A DNA stretch of 47,583 nucleotides, from IMG/VR virus record IMGVR_UViG_3300025402_000018, positions 1-47,583 of that record, one strand, 5' to 3'. The first letter of the stretch is position 1. Each line of letters starts with the position of its first letter. The notes beneath the pieces were generated by a model. It was not told the origin of the DNA. It made no database searches and saw nothing but the letters and a program-made list of their open reading frames with translations. The translations under genes and the position numbers were made by a program. This document shows positions 3,825 to 43,383 of this stretch, piece by piece. This DNA comes from a virus.

Positions 3825-4841
3825 TTAGTTTAGGAAAAATTCCAATGGTGCTCCGTATTGTGTTTCCATCTCCGAATGTAACTTATCAATTTCTTGAACC
3901 GCTTCATTGAAAATGGTATCACCATTGAGAGTTACACCACCTGGCAATTGTAGGTTATTGAACTTCTTGAGGTTGGATCCCCATGAACGTTTGATGAGAG
4001 CCGTGGCATATTCTTTCAACCAACGGTCATTCCAAACCTTAGTGTATACATCAGGATTAATATTGGCATAACATTCGGCAACAACAATAGTTCCTACTGG
4101 TGCTTCTGAGTAACCCCAAGCCCAATCAATGTAGAGTCTCTGCATATGTCTTTGAAAACGAATTGGAACTTCACCAGTGAACATTAACTCCAAAGAACGT
4201 AGATGTTGTTGAGTTAAAGTATAGTTGATATAGGATGCGGAGGTGAAGTCATACAACTCATTCAGACGGAGTTGGTATCTGAGGTCAAACATATTGACAC
4301 CAGCTTGAGAATCGGTAACTGGAAAGATTCTAGGCACACCAATAATTTCCATTGGATTACCCTGAGCATCTTTAGCTTCTGATAAGTCTAGGTATTTTTG
4401 GTCTACATCACCCATCATATACGATACCACATTGGCACCAGTTGGTACTATATTGCCACTCTGATCGTAATATGATATACCTTCACCTGCCGTAAAGGCT
4501 TGATTTCCCATAACTGAAATCATAGTATTGTTGGCACCTTGAAAACCACCAACTTTGAGTAATGCTAATGAACCTGATGTAGCACCAATGAATGTTCCGT
4601 TGGCTGCTGTTCCGTTGTATATACCTGAGATGTCTATATCAGAAACGATTTGTGAACCAGTGACCGCTTTGATGTAATAAACTTTTTGTAGTCCATCGAA
4701 ATGGTAGTCTTGCCAGTATTGAAGAGCATCGTCAATACGGTCTTCTACTTGGTCATCATCTACGTTAATTTCGATGACAGGAAAACCCAGTCTACGCAGA
4801 CAGTAGGTCTTAAAATCATTTCTGTTGGTTATGGTTGCCAT
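3825..4841 (-). CDS. Neck protein / head completion (T4 gp13-like)
   Basis: 338 residues (T4 gp13 is 309). The opening CLRRLGFPVIEINVDDDQVE, with DRIDDALQYWQDYHFDG directly behind, is the hallmark of gp13 in T4-like phages. Later conserved stretches include YQLRLNELYDFTSASYINY, QRHMQRLYIDWAWG and the C-terminal RSWGSNLKKFNNLQLPGG. gp13 assembles with gp14 on the portal after packaging. A small Gly-rich beta segment (residues about 70-110) may be an insertion. Upstream of the ATG there is an AGGAG site held in an 8-bp hairpin whose loop carries a late-promoter-like element, so expression is probably limited to late transcripts. Confidence 0.9.
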   Translation of the reverse strand: MATITNRNDFKTYCLRRLGFPVIEINVDDDQVEDRIDDALQYWQDYHFDGLQKVYYIKAVTGSQIVSDIDISGIYNGTAANGTFIGATSGSLALLKVGGFQGANNTMISVMGNQAFTAGEGISYYDQSGNIVPTGANVVSYMMGDVDQKYLDLSEAKDAQGNPMEIIGVPRIFPVTDSQAGVNMFDLRYQLRLNELYDFTSASYINYTLTQQHLRSLELMFTGEVPIRFQRHMQRLYIDWAWGYSEAPVGTIVVAECYANINPDVYTKVWNDRWLKEYATALIKRSWGSNLKKFNNLQLPGGVTLNGDTIFNEAVQEIDKLHSEMETQYGAPLEFFLN

Positions 4842-4848
4842 CCAATTT

Positions 4849-4879
4849 CTCCTATTATTCTCTATTTATTCAATAGGAG
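4849..4879 (-). promoter_or_regulatory. Hairpin sequestering the gp13 ribosome-binding site
   Basis: On the minus strand CTCCTATT (4879-4872) and AATAGGAG (4856-4849) form a perfect 8-bp stem with a 15-base loop. The 3' arm contains AGGAG, the ribosome-binding site 7 bases before the gp13 ATG. The loop contains the late-promoter-like AATAAATA. A transcript started from that promoter would begin near 4857, after the 5' arm, and so could not form the hairpin; read-through RNA would form it. This is the logic known for T4 genes e, soc and I-TevI. Confidence 0.65.
4863..4870 (-). promoter_or_regulatory. Late-promoter-like element (AATAAATA) before gp13
   Basis: Minus-strand AATAAATA matches TATAAATA at 7 of 8 positions and lies 21 bases upstream of the gp13 ATG, inside the loop of the hairpin at 4849-4879. 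With the element at -13 to -6 the start point would be near 4857. Confidence 0.55.
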
Positions 4880-4888
4880 GATTGGCAA

Positions 4889-5842
4889 TTAACCCGACGT
4901 ATCGATGATTGAGTTGTATTGGTCTAAAGCCGTTGTAGTTAATGTTATATATGATGATGTTTGTGCGGTGTTCATAATCATATTTGCAGCATGTGTTGGA
5001 TAAATTTTAGCTCTTTCTTCTCTCAGTAAATTAACTGTTGAATAAGCAATCGATAAATTTGCAGTATTTGAATTCAAATTATCTAATGTCAGTACCACTT
5101 GATCCATAATATTATTAGGTAAAATCGGTAAGGTGCTTAGTGCCGAGATTATGAGATTTGAAGTTCTTTCTACCTCTGGATTAATTAAAATTCTATGAAG
5201 TATTTTTTCTGTTTCTGGAGTTAAAGGCTCGTTTGGATCAAAAAATACCCAATTATTAGAAGAATCTAAATGATCTTGAAAAACACCATTTGCATCCGGA
5301 AGAGGCAACCTAGGCAATAATATTGTTGCAACGTTTGCATAATCAACAATATCATCATAAAATTCTTCATCATCAGGATGATCTTCTAGAGTTGTTAATG
5401 ATTTATGTATGCTCACTTTTGGCATTTCATCTATGTTTGGAATAAGATTGTGAAATTTAATCCAAGTATTAATTTCATTAGAGTCTTCTAAATTTTCTAT
5501 GTTATATTCGGACAAATACTTAAAGTGTTCAATTGTTTTGATAGTATTTTCACCTTTTGATCTGTTTGATACAAAAGCTTTTTGTTCTTCTGTCAATTCA
5601 TGGTAAAAATGATCATCTTCAAAACCTTCATCGGTTTTCACATATCGAGTGGCCACTTTATGTGTCTCTGGCGTATTTCTTAAGAACTCAACATTTCTAT
5701 TTTTTCTAGTGAACCAAGCAAATCCTGGCGGTGCTGTATTTCCTGAAATATCTAGATCAGGATAAACATCTAAAAAATTTGATATCAATATTGGATGATC
5801 TGCTGTATTTCCAGATTCATCAACTTTAATAATACATTTCAT
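4889..5842 (-). CDS. Unrecognised protein, helical C-terminal half
   Basis: 317 residues, function not recognised. The N-terminal 55 residues, with HPILISNFLDVYPDLDISG then PPGFAWFTRKNR, resemble a small domain seen in phage proteins encoded beside tail fibres (pattern YPILxxNFxxxxPxxD...PPGFAxF), but I cannot name it. The middle is acidic (DHPDDEEFYDDIVDYANVA) and the C-terminal 100 residues look like alpha helices (NNIMDQVVLTLDNLNSNT onwards). The start is one base after the stop of the Gly-rich adhesin gene, so the two are probably co-translated. A tail-fibre accessory or assembly role is an inference from the neighbourhood only. Confidence 0.7.
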   Translation of the reverse strand: MKCIIKVDESGNTADHPILISNFLDVYPDLDISGNTAPPGFAWFTRKNRNVEFLRNTPETHKVATRYVKTDEGFEDDHFYHELTEEQKAFVSNRSKGENTIKTIEHFKYLSEYNIENLEDSNEINTWIKFHNLIPNIDEMPKVSIHKSLTTLEDHPDDEEFYDDIVDYANVATILLPRLPLPDANGVFQDHLDSSNNWVFFDPNEPLTPETEKILHRILINPEVERTSNLIISALSTLPILPNNIMDQVVLTLDNLNSNTANLSIAYSTVNLLREERAKIYPTHAANMIMNTAQTSSYITLTTTALDQYNSIIDTSG

Positions 5843-12587: not shown

Positions 12588-14016
12588 TGATTAACCTTCT
12601 CAATTCTTCTATTTGTTGTTGTTGCTCTTTGATGGCTTCAATGAGTAAAGGAACCAATCTAGAATAATCTACTGTTAAATAGTTTTCTCCTGATTTGGAT
12701 ACAATTTCACCTGTTTCTGGAACACCTTGCATATCAAATGGAGCAAGACTAACAACTTCAGGTAATATTTTTTGAATTTCTTGTGCAGATAAACCTACCT
12801 GAACTTCGGTTCCTTTAAAACCTTTTTCTACAGCTATATCATTATTGATATATTTAAATGCGTTTAAAGATAATACACTTTGTAATGCATTATCTATTTT
12901 ACCAACTTTTTCTTTTAATCTTTCATCCGAATAATATGCAGTAATATTACCTGAAGCGTATATATTTCCGCTACCATAATTTCCACCAGATGCTGTAAAT
13001 CCAACTAATGATGAACCATTAATAACTTGATGGTGCCATGTAGCAGAGTTTGAAAAATTCCATAATGCTCCATAGCTTTCACTTAATCTAGCTCCAGTTG
13101 AATTATCAAAAGTTGCACCAGAACCTCCCAAAATAAAAGATGATCCACCATTTATTGTTATTCCACCACTATTTGTTGTAAACAAACGATAGAAGTATGA
13201 TGTATTATTTGGATCAGCATAATAACCAGTGTCATTTTGGTCATAAAATATTGGTGATCTTAAACTATAATTTGTGTATACATATCCTGATTTAACTAAT
13301 CTAAGAATATTATCAATTTGACTACCGCCATTGTTTGCACCAAAAACCAAATCATCTGAAGAATCTAATGCGGTAAATCCAATATACCAATTACCATCAT
13401 AATTACCTCTTTCTCTACGCCACCTTAAACCACCCCATGTTGATGTTGAGGACATAGAAAATGAAATACCTTCTACCCAAGCTCCAGGTTGTGGATATAT
13501 TAACTGATTGTATGTTGAGAATGATCCTGTAAATGATACGCTTGACGAAGTTGTACCTGAAAAAGAACCTGTAGCACCAGTAGGTCCTGTGGGTCCTGTC
13601 GGTCCAGTAGGACCCGAAGGACCTGTTGGTCCATAAGGACCTGTAGGACCAGTAACACCTGTTGCACCTTGACCACCAGTAGGTCCTGTTGGTCCCGTAG
13701 AACCAGTAGGTCCTGTTGGACCTGCATTGCCTTGAAGACCTGTTGCACCAGTAGCACCGGTTGCTCCGTTAGTACCATTGGTGCCAGCAGGACCCGTAGC
13801 ACCAGTTGGTCCTGTTGATCCCGTTGGGCCGGTAGAACCTGTAGCTCCTGCAGGTCCCGTAGGTCCGGTTGACCCTGTGGCTCCGGTAGGTCCAGTAGCA
13901 CCAGTAGCACCTATGAGTCCGCTGGGAGATCCTACCCATTGTCCTGATGAATTGATGACGTTTGTAGTACCAACGGTCAAACCGTTCTTAACTACAAAGT
14001 TAGATGAAGTGGCCAA
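12577..14016 (-). CDS. Collagen-like tail fibre with S74 intramolecular chaperone (first copy, TTG start)
   Basis: 479 residues. The first codon is TTG at 14016-14014; the homologous position in the two downstream paralogues is ATG, and AGAGGA lies 9 bases upstream, so I accept TTG. Residues 1-35 are the shared N-terminal module, about 36-150 are collagen-like (with a GTNGTNGAT variation), the middle has one [17 protein letters not shown] motif, and residues 363-479 are S74 ([53 protein letters not shown]). It follows the glycosyltransferase gene. Its ribosome-binding site can pair in a hairpin that spans a CATAAATA late-promoter-like element, so expression is likely late-specific. Receptor unknown. 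Confidence 0.9.
13567..13911 (-). repeat. Collagen-like Gly-X-Y repeat of the first S74 fibre
   Basis: About 115 residues, the longest of the collagen-like stretches here: [12 protein letters not shown], then GTNGTN, then GPT again with GGQ and GPY interruptions. Confidence 0.9.
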
Positions 14017-14021
14017 GATTC

Positions 14022-14064
14022 ACTATCCTCTTGTTATTATTATAGTTTATTTATGTAGGATAAT
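14022..14064 (-). promoter_or_regulatory. Hairpin sequestering the ribosome-binding site of the first collagen-like fibre
   Basis: On the minus strand ATTATCCT (14064-14057) can pair with AGGATAGT (14029-14022), 8 bp with one U-G pair and a 27-base loop. The 3' arm includes the AGGA part of the ribosome-binding site upstream of the TTG start. The loop holds CATAAATA; a transcript begun there, near 14042, would lack the 5' arm. Same design as at 4849-4879. Confidence 0.5.
14048..14055 (-). promoter_or_regulatory. Late-promoter-like element (CATAAATA)
   Basis: Minus-strand CATAAATA, 7 of 8 matches to TATAAATA, 31 bases upstream of the TTG start at 14016 and inside the loop of the hairpin at 14022-14064. 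It overlaps the stop of the glycosyltransferase gene. Confidence 0.55.
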
Positions 14065-18969: not shown

Positions 18970-18983
18970 GTTTTATTTATCTC

Positions 18984-27459: not shown

Positions 27460-27798
27460 TTACCTCGTAACATCTGGAGAAACCTCTAGAATACCTTCTA
27501 GGATTCTGGTTTTTAAATTTGAACCATTATCTGTAATTACCGTATCGTAAACGTATCTTCCTGGAGCTATATTTGCTGTTGTATTGGCACTCAGAGACAA
27601 GTTTATAGTTGCCGTAGGCACATCAATACTTGTCGTAAAGGTGGTTATAGCGTTTGCTGAGTAATAGGATTTACGGATAGTACCAGCAACTGTTGTACTG
27701 GTCAGATTATACAAGTTACCATAAACATCATCCAGTGTGATATTTGTGGTAAAAGTGGTACCTTGTTCAACGTAGAGGTTTGTGTATGCGGCTGGCAT
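27460..27798 (-). CDS. Beta-sandwich-like fibre adaptor (112 residues)
   Basis: 112 residues: LYVEQGTTFTTNITLDDVYG, NLTSTTVAGTIRKSY, TINLSLSANTTANIAPGRYV and YDTVITDNGSN have the alternating pattern of a small Ig-like or BppU-N-like beta sandwich (FxxxITLxDxxGxxxNLTGxxVxxxIRKSY ... GRYVYD), common next to fibre genes in aquatic myoviruses. It presumably docks a fibre to the baseplate or another fibre. Its ribosome-binding site TAGGAT is part of a hairpin that directly follows a CATAAATA element, so regulation is probably late-specific. Its stop is 2 bases from the next start. Confidence 0.7.
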   Translation of the reverse strand: MPAAYTNLYVEQGTTFTTNITLDDVYGNLYNLTSTTVAGTIRKSYYSANAITTFTTSIDVPTATINLSLSANTTANIAPGRYVYDTVITDNGSNLKTRILEGILEVSPDVTR

Positions 27799-27802
27799 TT
27801 TA

Positions 27803-27828
27803 ATCCTAGAGATAATATTCTATAGGAT
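27803..27828 (-). promoter_or_regulatory. Hairpin sequestering the ribosome-binding site of the 112-residue gene
   Basis: Minus-strand ATCCTA (27828-27823) pairs with TAGGAT (27808-27803); after one mismatch AGA pairs with TCT, closing a 6-base loop (ATATTA). TAGGAT is the ribosome-binding site 4 bases before the ATG. The late element lies directly upstream, so a transcript started near 27822 would lose the outer 6-bp arm and keep only a 3-bp remnant. Confidence 0.55.
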
Positions 27829-27835
27829 ATTTATG
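27828..27835 (-). promoter_or_regulatory. Late-promoter-like element (CATAAATA)
   Basis: Minus-strand CATAAATA, 7 of 8 matches to TATAAATA, 29 bases upstream of the ATG at 27798. It abuts the 5' arm of the hairpin at 27803-27828. Confidence 0.5.
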
Positions 27836-27843
27836 CCATCTGG

Positions 27844-30723
27844 TTATTTACCTTTTAGGATTTCTACTTCACCCTTTAATTCTCTGATGGCTGCAAAGGC
27901 TAAAGCACATAGTTTTTCATAATCAACAACAAGTGTACCATCAGGTTTTGTTCTAATAGCTACAGGAAATACTGATTGGACGTCTTGAGCAATCACACCA
28001 AAATCTGATTTTTGAACAAAATAACCGTCTTCGCCGCCTCTTTTTGTAATATATTCATCTGTCCAATCAAAAAGTTTACCACCAATAGACAATACAGTAT
28101 CTAAAGCATTAGGAATATCTCTAATATTTTCTTTCAATTTCTTATCTGAAGAATAATAAGCAGTAATATTGGAACCTGCACGAATTTCGCCGTATACAAC
28201 TGATCCTAATCCACCACCTACATTAAGACCAGATACTGTCAATGCATTCATAAATGAAGAAGCGCTTGGTTGTATATAATACCCAGTAGATGCATAATCA
28301 TAGTAAACAGCTTGATATGAACTTGCATTACCGTTGACATAACCAGCATAAGTGGCATAGCCAGAACTACCTGTCACATTAATACTCCAAGTACCTGAAG
28401 CATTACCACCAGTTAATGTTGGTGAATAAGAATTGTAATTTCCAGCATATAGTACCTGTGAACTACCAATTGTTAGATTGCTGAAGTTAGTTTGTGAAGT
28501 AGTTGCTGAGTTACCGTAAATATTGATATTCCAGGTTCCCGAAGCATTACCACCAGTTAATGTTGGTGAATAAGAATTGTAATTTCCAGCATACAATACT
28601 TGCGAGCTATTGATCGTTAAATTACTAAAATTGGTTTGTGATGTTGTACCAGAATTGCCATCAATAGAAACACCAGTCAATGTTTGTGAAGCACTTGAAC
28701 GATTCAAAGCAATTGATGTTGTGCCAATATAATGATTAGAATTACCTAATACACTTGAAGGTATAGTTCCAGTTAAATTACCAGCAGTTAAACTGGTTAA
28801 ATTGGCACCACTCACAGCACCAAAAGAAGCACTCCAAGTACCAGATGTAATTGTACCCACTTGCGTTAGACTGGATAATGTTACACCAGAATTTAATGTG
28901 GTACCCGTTAAAGTGCCTGCAGCAGCCGTAACTGTTTTTGAATCACCAAGACTAAAAGAAACTCCGTTAACCGTGACCGTGCTATTTGTCAAAGCACCAT
29001 TTGGAATACTGCTAAAGTTGGCACCAGAAAATGTTGGTGCAGCACCACTCACAACACTCTGTGGTGTATTAATGGTAAGCGTATTTGCTGATCCGGTAAT
29101 TGTTACACCATTTGTACTTGAGAAAGTAATAACACCATTACTTGATACGGCTTGACCCGTGGTACCATTGAATGTACCAGAACCTGTATTTGCTTTGTTG
29201 TAAGCGGATTGAGCCAATACGTTAGCTGCATTTGCTCTATCATATCCTGATGTGGAATATGTGCTTAATATGGTATAGTTACTATTACCAGAATTATAAG
29301 CAGATTGTGCCAATACATTAGCTGCATTTGCCTTGTTATATGCTGATTGAGCATAACCAAAAACAGCTGTAATGTTATTGTTTAGTGTATTAGCAACATT
29401 AGAAGTTGGTGCTGTAATTGTACTTGTTGATAAAACAGTATTGTCTAATTGTTCTGTGGTAAGAATTCTATAATAAGAACCTGATGTAACATTATTAATA
29501 TCCCAATATTGCGAACCTTCATTCCAACGAATGGCAGCATTAGCACCTGTAATTCCTCTATTGACTGTATAAGCACTCTGCAAACCTATAGAACTACCAG
29601 CATTTAATGTGAATGTATTTGCATTATATACAGTAGAACCATTGATAACAAAGTTTCCACCAACGGTAAATTGACCGGTTGTTTGTAATGTATTAAAATA
29701 ACCCGAAGCATTGTTGGCATATAAAGAATTAGCAACATTAGCAACTGGTGTTGTAATTATAGTATTGGCTCTAATTGTATCTACATATTCCGTACCAATA
29801 ACCACCAGTGTTGGTGTCTGCACACTTGTATTGGCAACTAGATTTTTTCCATAAGTGGTTGTAGTAAATAATGTTGGAGATATGATATAAGGTGCTTGAA
29901 TAGATCCAAAATAACCTATTGCTGAATTTGCATCAACTCTTGTTGTAACTGTAACAAGAGGAGTAGTTACTAGTGTATTGGCAGAGACTGTATCTACATA
30001 TTCAGTACCAATTACAATTAATGTTGGTGTTTGAACACTTGTATTAGCCACAAAATAATTTGACTGTGTATTGCTTGAATAAATCAAAGGCGATACAAGA
30101 GAAGTATTAGCAACAAAATTATTTGCCGTAACTTGATTTAATAATGTTGTATTATTGGCATAAACATTTTGTACAACATTAATATTACCTCCAATAATTG
30201 TATTACCCGTAATATTTACGTTATTTGATACAGTTGTTGTTCCAGTAATATAGACTGTATTTGATATGTTGGTACTACCAGTTATAAACAAGGTGTTCGA
30301 TATGACCGTATTGCCGTTTAGGTTGGATTGACCAACTACCATAATTGTTCCGTTGAATAATGAGTTATTGGCAACATTAAGACCTGTTCCAGAACTCAAA
30401 GCTAATAAAGGACCACCAATATTAGCTTGACCAGAAGTTACCAAACTTAATGATGTGTTGGTATTGTATATTGTACCATCAACTCTTGCATTTCTTTGAA
30501 CATAGAATGAAGAACCAACACCTTGGACTGATAATTGTCCACCAAAAACGGCATTGTTGGCTACTGATAAACCTAAAGTTACATCATTTAGGTATAATGT
30601 TCCGGAATATTTGAAATAATTATTGGCCGCTAGGTCATTATTTTCTTGTGCCAACTTATTGGTCGTGGTTACCCATTCACCAAAAGTATTAGCGTAACTT
30701 AGAATTGTAACTGTATTGGCCAT
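27844..30723 (-). CDS. Large tail fibre with S74 intramolecular chaperone
   Basis: 959 residues. The N-terminal part begins TVTILSYANTFGEWVTTTNK followed by LAQENNDLAANNYFKYSGTL, a frequent N-terminus in aquatic phage fibres. Residues about 70-330 are beta-rich, Asn/Thr-rich tandem segments (NTSVQTPTLIVIGTEYVDTV type, present twice). Later parts carry NKANAANVLAQSAYN units, FGAVSGANLTSLTAGNLTG and a tandem 48-residue repeat. A YYDYASTGYYIQP motif precedes the S74 chaperone, which begins at residue 859 (SDKKLKENIRDIPNALDTV, then GVIAQDVQSVFP, VVDYEKLCALAFAAIREL). No collagen-like part is present, unlike the S74 fibres at 8.7-14 kb. Trimeric fibre, self-cleaving end predicted. Confidence 0.88.
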   Translation of the reverse strand: MANTVTILSYANTFGEWVTTTNKLAQENNDLAANNYFKYSGTLYLNDVTLGLSVANNAVFGGQLSVQGVGSSFYVQRNARVDGTIYNTNTSLSLVTSGQANIGGPLLALSSGTGLNVANNSLFNGTIMVVGQSNLNGNTVISNTLFITGSTNISNTVYITGTTTVSNNVNITGNTIIGGNINVVQNVYANNTTLLNQVTANNFVANTSLVSPLIYSSNTQSNYFVANTSVQTPTLIVIGTEYVDTVSANTLVTTPLVTVTTRVDANSAIGYFGSIQAPYIISPTLFTTTTYGKNLVANTSVQTPTLVVIGTEYVDTIRANTIITTPVANVANSLYANNASGYFNTLQTTGQFTVGGNFVINGSTVYNANTFTLNAGSSIGLQSAYTVNRGITGANAAIRWNEGSQYWDINNVTSGSYYRILTTEQLDNTVLSTSTITAPTSNVANTLNNNITAVFGYAQSAYNKANAANVLAQSAYNSGNSNYTILSTYSTSGYDRANAANVLAQSAYNKANTGSGTFNGTTGQAVSSNGVITFSSTNGVTITGSANTLTINTPQSVVSGAAPTFSGANFSSIPNGALTNSTVTVNGVSFSLGDSKTVTAAAGTLTGTTLNSGVTLSSLTQVGTITSGTWSASFGAVSGANLTSLTAGNLTGTIPSSVLGNSNHYIGTTSIALNRSSASQTLTGVSIDGNSGTTSQTNFSNLTINSSQVLYAGNYNSYSPTLTGGNASGTWNINIYGNSATTSQTNFSNLTIGSSQVLYAGNYNSYSPTLTGGNASGTWSINVTGSSGYATYAGYVNGNASSYQAVYYDYASTGYYIQPSASSFMNALTVSGLNVGGGLGSVVYGEIRAGSNITAYYSSDKKLKENIRDIPNALDTVLSIGGKLFDWTDEYITKRGGEDGYFVQKSDFGVIAQDVQSVFPVAIRTKPDGTLVVDYEKLCALAFAAIRELKGEVEILKGK
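28397..28449 (-). repeat. 53-bp exact direct repeat, copy 1
   Basis: Identical by eye to 28541-28593; 144 bp apart (48 codons), part of a tandem 48-residue repeat (SPTLTGGNASGTW core) in the S74 fibre. Confidence 0.85.
28541..28593 (-). repeat. 53-bp exact direct repeat, copy 2
   Basis: Second copy of 28397-28449, in frame. Confidence 0.85.
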
Positions 30724-38330: not shown

Positions 38331-38348
38331 GGTGTTTATTTATTTCTT

Positions 38349-43344: not shown

Positions 43345-43383
43345 TCTTTATTTATAGAGCCTAGGAGTAAATGCGCTTTTTGG

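Follow-up and report, generated by a model that had tools for sequence, protein, structure and literature searches.

A putative translation-masking hairpin with a late promoter in its loop ahead of the neck gene gp13 of an uncultured freshwater T4-like phage

In an uncultured freshwater T4-like phage, the neck protein gene gp13 is preceded by a T4-type late promoter element placed in the loop of a hairpin that holds the gp13 Shine-Dalgarno (SD) sequence, and folding calculations together with conservation among close relatives indicate that this leader probably works as a cis-acting translational switch of the e, soc and I-TevI type, in which the promoter of origin of an RNA would decide whether gp13 is translated from it. 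A literature search of open-licence papers found no report of a promoter-in-hairpin leader on gp13. The window, by which we mean the whole 47.6-kb phage record analysed, carries every long gene on the minus strand, and no near-identical DNA was found in named phages. In the direction of transcription, the region consists of:

4889 to 5842, minus strand: upstream gene, 317 aa, no PHROG or Pfam family; the source of any read-through RNA.
4880 to 4888, minus strand: outer helix, 5' strand (TTGCC-A-ATCC), from the MFE fold; directly after the upstream TAA.
4872 to 4879, minus strand: core stem, 5' arm CTCCTATT (anti-SD), upstream of the predicted late start and hence absent from late RNA.
4863 to 4870, minus strand: late promoter element AATAAATA, T4 type (consensus TATAAATA), wholly inside the loop.
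4857, minus strand: predicted late transcription start (+1), first base of a leader of about 16 nt, placed by T4 late promoter spacing.
4849 to 4856, minus strand: core stem, 3' arm AATAGGAG, with the SD AGGAG (4853-4849), read from the sequence.
4835 to 4843, minus strand: outer helix, 3' strand GGATGGCAA, including the gp13 AUG, from the MFE fold.
3825 to 4841, minus strand: gp13, neck / head-tail adaptor gene, 338 aa (phrog_211 Ad2, E 1.4e-38), start codon 4841-4839.

Read 5' to 3' on the minus strand, the leader is TAA TTGCCAATC CTCCTATT GAATAAATAGAGAAT AATAGGAG AAATTGG ATG GCAACC. An earlier, sequence-only reading had described a perfect 8-bp stem with AGGAG in its 3' arm and the late motif in its loop, and this was confirmed, with 4879-4872 paired to 4856-4849 around a 15-nt loop (4871-4857). 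Its further claim, that late transcription starts next to the 3' arm so that the 5' arm is lost, agrees with T4 spacing, which predicts +1 at about 4857, one base before the arm. That reading overlooked the outer helix, which closes the base of the structure, is present in the MFE fold at 100-, 160- and 300-nt contexts and is predicted to lock the AUG as well. No match at gathering score to Rfam covariance models was obtained within the window. The gp13 product is about 38% identical to the Melnitz neck protein, and gp14, gp15 and small-terminase homologues follow downstream; the genes upstream of gp13 encode tail fibres, glycine-rich proteins and unknown proteins, which look late and structural, and the stop codon of the nearest one (TAA, 4891-4889) abuts the 5' strand of the outer helix.

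Folding energies recovered the difference between read-through and late leaders that the sequence-only reading had implied, at a strength comparable to that of T4 gene e. Opening the stretch from the SD to the AUG costs 13.2 kcal/mol (13.16) in read-through RNA versus 4.6-5.6 kcal/mol (4.62) in late RNA, the higher late value arising because the downstream context was slightly longer in the 5' truncation scan; dinucleotide-shuffled upstream sequence gave 7.5 +/- 2.1 kcal/mol, and shuffles at least as high as the real read-through masking occurred in 1/100, 4/200 and 0/60 trials. In the truncation scan the cost stayed at 9 kcal/mol or more until 4879 and was 5.6-5.7 once the RNA began at or below 4876, while RNA beginning at CTCC cost 9.2 kcal/mol to open. 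The SD-to-AUG measure replaced one of the SD only after the latter had given a modest 3.6 in the window. As a positive control, the same calculation on T4 gene e yielded 15.95 for read-through versus 4.03 for late RNA, with 1/200 shuffles as high. The masking in the window is thus an event of about 1-2% per promoter with ten usable promoters, which is only moderate support against chance at a single site, and therefore the weight of the argument rests on conservation in relatives.

The start at about 4857 is well predicted because of motif placement, T4 late-box spacing and the presence of gp55 in related contigs. The window contains 14 copies of ATAAATA, fewer than the 25.7 +/- 4.8 of shuffled sequence; 13 of the 14 are on the coding strand, and an ORF start follows 10 of these 13 at a distance of 5-50 nt (p about 3e-13). 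The same motif is found ahead of most gp13 homologues. T4 late TATA boxes are 8 bp long and span -13 to -6, and similar late-box consensus sequences have been reported for other T4-related phages (PMC2988020). Homologues of the late sigma factor gp55 were detected in all four related contigs longer than 90 kb (E 1e-23 to 1e-25) and none in the 47.6-kb fragment itself.

Conservation was assessed on leaders gathered by gp13 protein similarity, regardless of hairpins, which gave 109 distinct leaders. Eleven gp13 genes, 82-100% identical in their best segment, form the clade of the window, and the hairpin stands ahead of gp13 in eight of them, with the 5' arm CTCCTATT exact in 8/8. In the other three (L006, L007 and L010) the 5' end of gp13 is the site of an inserted ORF (232-249 aa), so that the hairpin, with its 5' arm kept, the promoter and the first dozen or so gp13 codons now precede the inserted ORF. 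These ORFs carry an HHIIP motif, recognised from sequence, which we take to be typical of HNH endonucleases; a 60-aa fragment of such an ORF had no Pfam match. Upstream of the hairpin, pairwise identity within the clade is 0.29-0.40 and most upstream genes are unrelated. As to the compensatory changes that the sequence-only reading had proposed as a check, core pairing is kept in 94.6% of alignment cells, the replacements being G-U pairs and, in the closing pair, a single G-C; the covariation does not exceed that of shuffled controls (124/500), because the SD side is invariant and cannot vary. Core substitutions mostly preserve G-U pairing (offsets -1, 0, +2, +4), which favours a function in RNA over one in DNA. 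Two close relatives with the hairpin, L008 and L009, are predicted to mask no better than shuffles (17/100 and 47/100), apparently owing to possible pairing between CCTATT and an AATAGG at the promoter's end.

HHIIP ORFs of the HNH type are inserted at the gp13 5' end in L082 (1668-2366), L090, L113 and L099, where they carry the gp13 hairpin, promoter and first 12 or so codons in frame. Behind them gp13 starts anew, overlapping their stop by 1-13 nt; its N-terminus is duplicated and its own promoter is absent.

Beyond the clade, the same arms appear in scattered gp13 lineages, namely L073 (13 bp), L080 (14 bp), L150-L154, L161 and L198. Wide hairpins (at least 7 bp) are present in 20 of the 109 leaders; the tree, a quick FastTree with some long branches, implies 13 changes, and supported branches force at least 8 of them. 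More telling still, masks built from unrelated sequence occupy the same position: TCACCTCTGA/TCAGAGGTGA around ATAAATA in L211; AATACTCCT/AGGAGTATT in L046, where the arm overlaps the promoter end; GTCATATC/GGTATGAC in L172-L193, where the arm separates the promoter from the start; and, by inspection, GATGGCATAAAT opposite ATTTATGGCATC in L212, L225 and L228. At p<=0.05, masking was detected in 34 of 79 testable distinct gp13 leaders (43%), a descriptive rate, since these leaders are phylogenetically related and do not amount to 79 independent events, versus 4/39 other late leaders (Fisher p 3e-4) and 6/151 leaders without the motif. Masking as a general property of late leaders was accordingly rejected, as only the 4 of 39 outside gp13 show it. 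The sequence-only reading had counted a retained promoter without the pairing against the switch, and exactly this is seen in many of the more distant gp13 leaders; the device is therefore optional. The gp13 leaders of Melnitz-3, HTVC008M, Cr30, BUCT-ZZ01 and S-SM2 either are without a testable promoter or SD or have no mask. The mask thus appears to be a clade-specific feature of gp13 leaders that has been gained or lost repeatedly, and not a universal one. A broader interpretation, which we offer tentatively and at somewhat less than even chances, is that gp13 in freshwater T4-like phages has been under recurrent selection for promoter-of-origin masking by unrelated arms; at least three layouts would then be distinguished, with the arm upstream of the promoter, with the arm between promoter and start, or with the promoter paired to the AUG region.

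T4 gene e is, according to PMC3014915, a proven case of a promoter in a hairpin. In e, as in gp13, long RNAs lock the SD and AUG side in a hairpin with the late TATAAATA in its loop, late RNA is without the 5' arm, and the computed energies are similar (15.95/4.03 versus 13.16/4.62). The two differ in that e serves lysis, lies on early read-through RNA and has two late promoters and RNA ends that have been mapped, while gp13 encodes a neck protein and follows genes that look late and structural; the arms of the two are of unrelated sequence. T4 soc, 49, I-TevI, I-TevII/III and segB and Aeh1 mobE are likewise late genes on longer transcripts with a sequestered ribosome-binding site and a late promoter inside or beside the structure (PMC3014915, PMC2988022), but most of them encode nucleases or accessory functions, gp13 is not among them, and for this phage group none is on record. 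T4 gene 25 resembles gp13 in being a structural late gene with a conserved stem in its start region (PMC3014915), although no late promoter in the loop is described there.

By analogy with these systems, a polymerase arriving from upstream would copy both arms, and the RNA would fold with the core stem over the SD and the outer helix over the AUG, so that 30S subunits could not readily bind. A gp55-type late polymerase, in turn, would start at about 4857, leaving the 5' arm upstream of +1; this arm would be absent from late RNA, and therefore the leader of about 16 nt would expose AGGAG and the AUG. Production of gp13, and possibly of the following gp14 and gp15, would then depend on the late promoter of gp13 and not on read-through RNA. 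Because the upstream genes look late and structural, the blocked read-through RNA is probably itself late, and the switch probably separates gp13 from any read-through RNA and not only from early RNA. The masking logic behind the earlier proposal that gp13 translation is limited to late transcripts is thus upheld by the folding and by conservation in the clade, while a limitation to transcripts from its own promoter fits better. The most likely purpose would be to set when, and in what amount, neck proteins are made without dependence on the variable upstream tail-fibre genes.

The competing explanation that survives best, although we consider it unlikely, is translational coupling, whereby gp13 translation on read-through RNA is not silenced but depends on ribosomes finishing the upstream gene. 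A ribosome ending at the TAA that abuts the outer helix could melt at least this helix, and most credible hairpin leaders have 12-22 nt between the upstream stop and the core. However, the 8-bp core begins just beyond the estimated reach of a terminating ribosome, and RNA from CTCC onwards remains costly to open, as given above; moreover, the upstream genes differ and no specific partner is conserved, and coupling alone leaves the promoter in the loop unexplained.

Less probable still is that the hairpin and promoter form a recombination or mobile cassette that chiefly marks a junction for upstream gene swaps, with incidental masking. Such a role is suggested by homology that begins at the hairpin while upstream genes change, by a second copy about 3.2 kb upstream of gp13 in L112 and by the capture of the hairpin and promoter by HNH-type genes, but a strict-pattern scan puts all copies before gp13 except the captured ones and one remnant, upstream genes are swapped as well in other gp13 leaders, which have no arm, and sequence exchange gives no account of the recurring masks of unrelated sequence (L211, L046, L172). 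We regard as very improbable an inverted repeat acting on DNA, as a cruciform or as an operator for a late-promoter regulator. The repeat does flank the promoter symmetrically, and I-TevI binds an operator over its own late promoter (PMC2988022); yet most core changes give G-U pairs, which keep RNA pairing and break DNA symmetry, and unrelated arms occupy the same place in L211 and L046. Least credible of all is a chance stem or a terminator of the upstream unit. A single-site probability of only about 1-2%, with ten promoters to choose from, speaks for chance, but the structure is conserved throughout the window clade; no U tract follows the stem and no terminator-like site was called at 4841-4890.

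Similar layouts were noted elsewhere in the window and in relatives. The second candidate in the window is:

27798 to 27844, minus strand: late promoter ATAAATA (27834-27828) before a 112-aa gene (27798-27460; phrog_1084/phrog_3304).

There TGGCAT/ATGCCA locks the AUG and ATCCTA/TAGGAT the SD, and opening costs 14.2 kcal/mol in read-through versus 4.2 kcal/mol in late RNA (0/200 shuffles); as a conserved mask it was rejected, being not kept in the nearest relatives (3/17 leaders at p<=0.05). A tail-fibre gene with a TTG start has its promoter (14054-14048) in the loop of TATTATCCT/AGGATAGTGA (14016-14060, minus strand; 10.6 versus 5.9 kcal/mol, 3/200 shuffles). Three minus-strand late-promoter motifs (43349-43355, 38337-38343 and 18974-18980) lie only 4-6 nt before an AUG, so unless translation truly begins further on, their late RNAs would lack a leader or have their 5' end within the ORF. 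Among relatives, GIY-YIG-type genes in L119, L123, L134, L139, L140, L141, L144, L146 and L147 have the promoter in a hairpin loop over AGGA (for example AAGTATCCTATTATATAAATAATAATGTAATAGGATACTT before ATG). Promoter-in-hairpin leaders also precede a 111-aa gene (MAQFIELDLDQG...) in L121, L125, L129, L133, L137 and L143, by eye apparently related to the 27798 gene, and a 158-aa gene (MYLRTIGKP...) in L117, L118, L127, L131, L148 and L149. The second copy in L112 (reverse strand, about 38-94) is followed by a six-codon remnant, MSTTTN, and then by a glycine-rich-protein-like gene, a duplicated late-promoter cassette.

With the proposed switch, a core morphogenesis gene of uncultured freshwater relatives would join the lysis, accessory and endonuclease genes for which this classical T4 mechanism is mainly known, and HNH-type endonuclease-like genes are seen to have captured a ready-made late switch by insertion just behind it. 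The leaders in which masking was and was not detected provide a countable comparative system in which to ask why a single late structural gene should have to be shielded from read-through translation. If recurrent selection for masking did act on gp13, the device would serve to insulate one late module from another and not only as an early/late timer.
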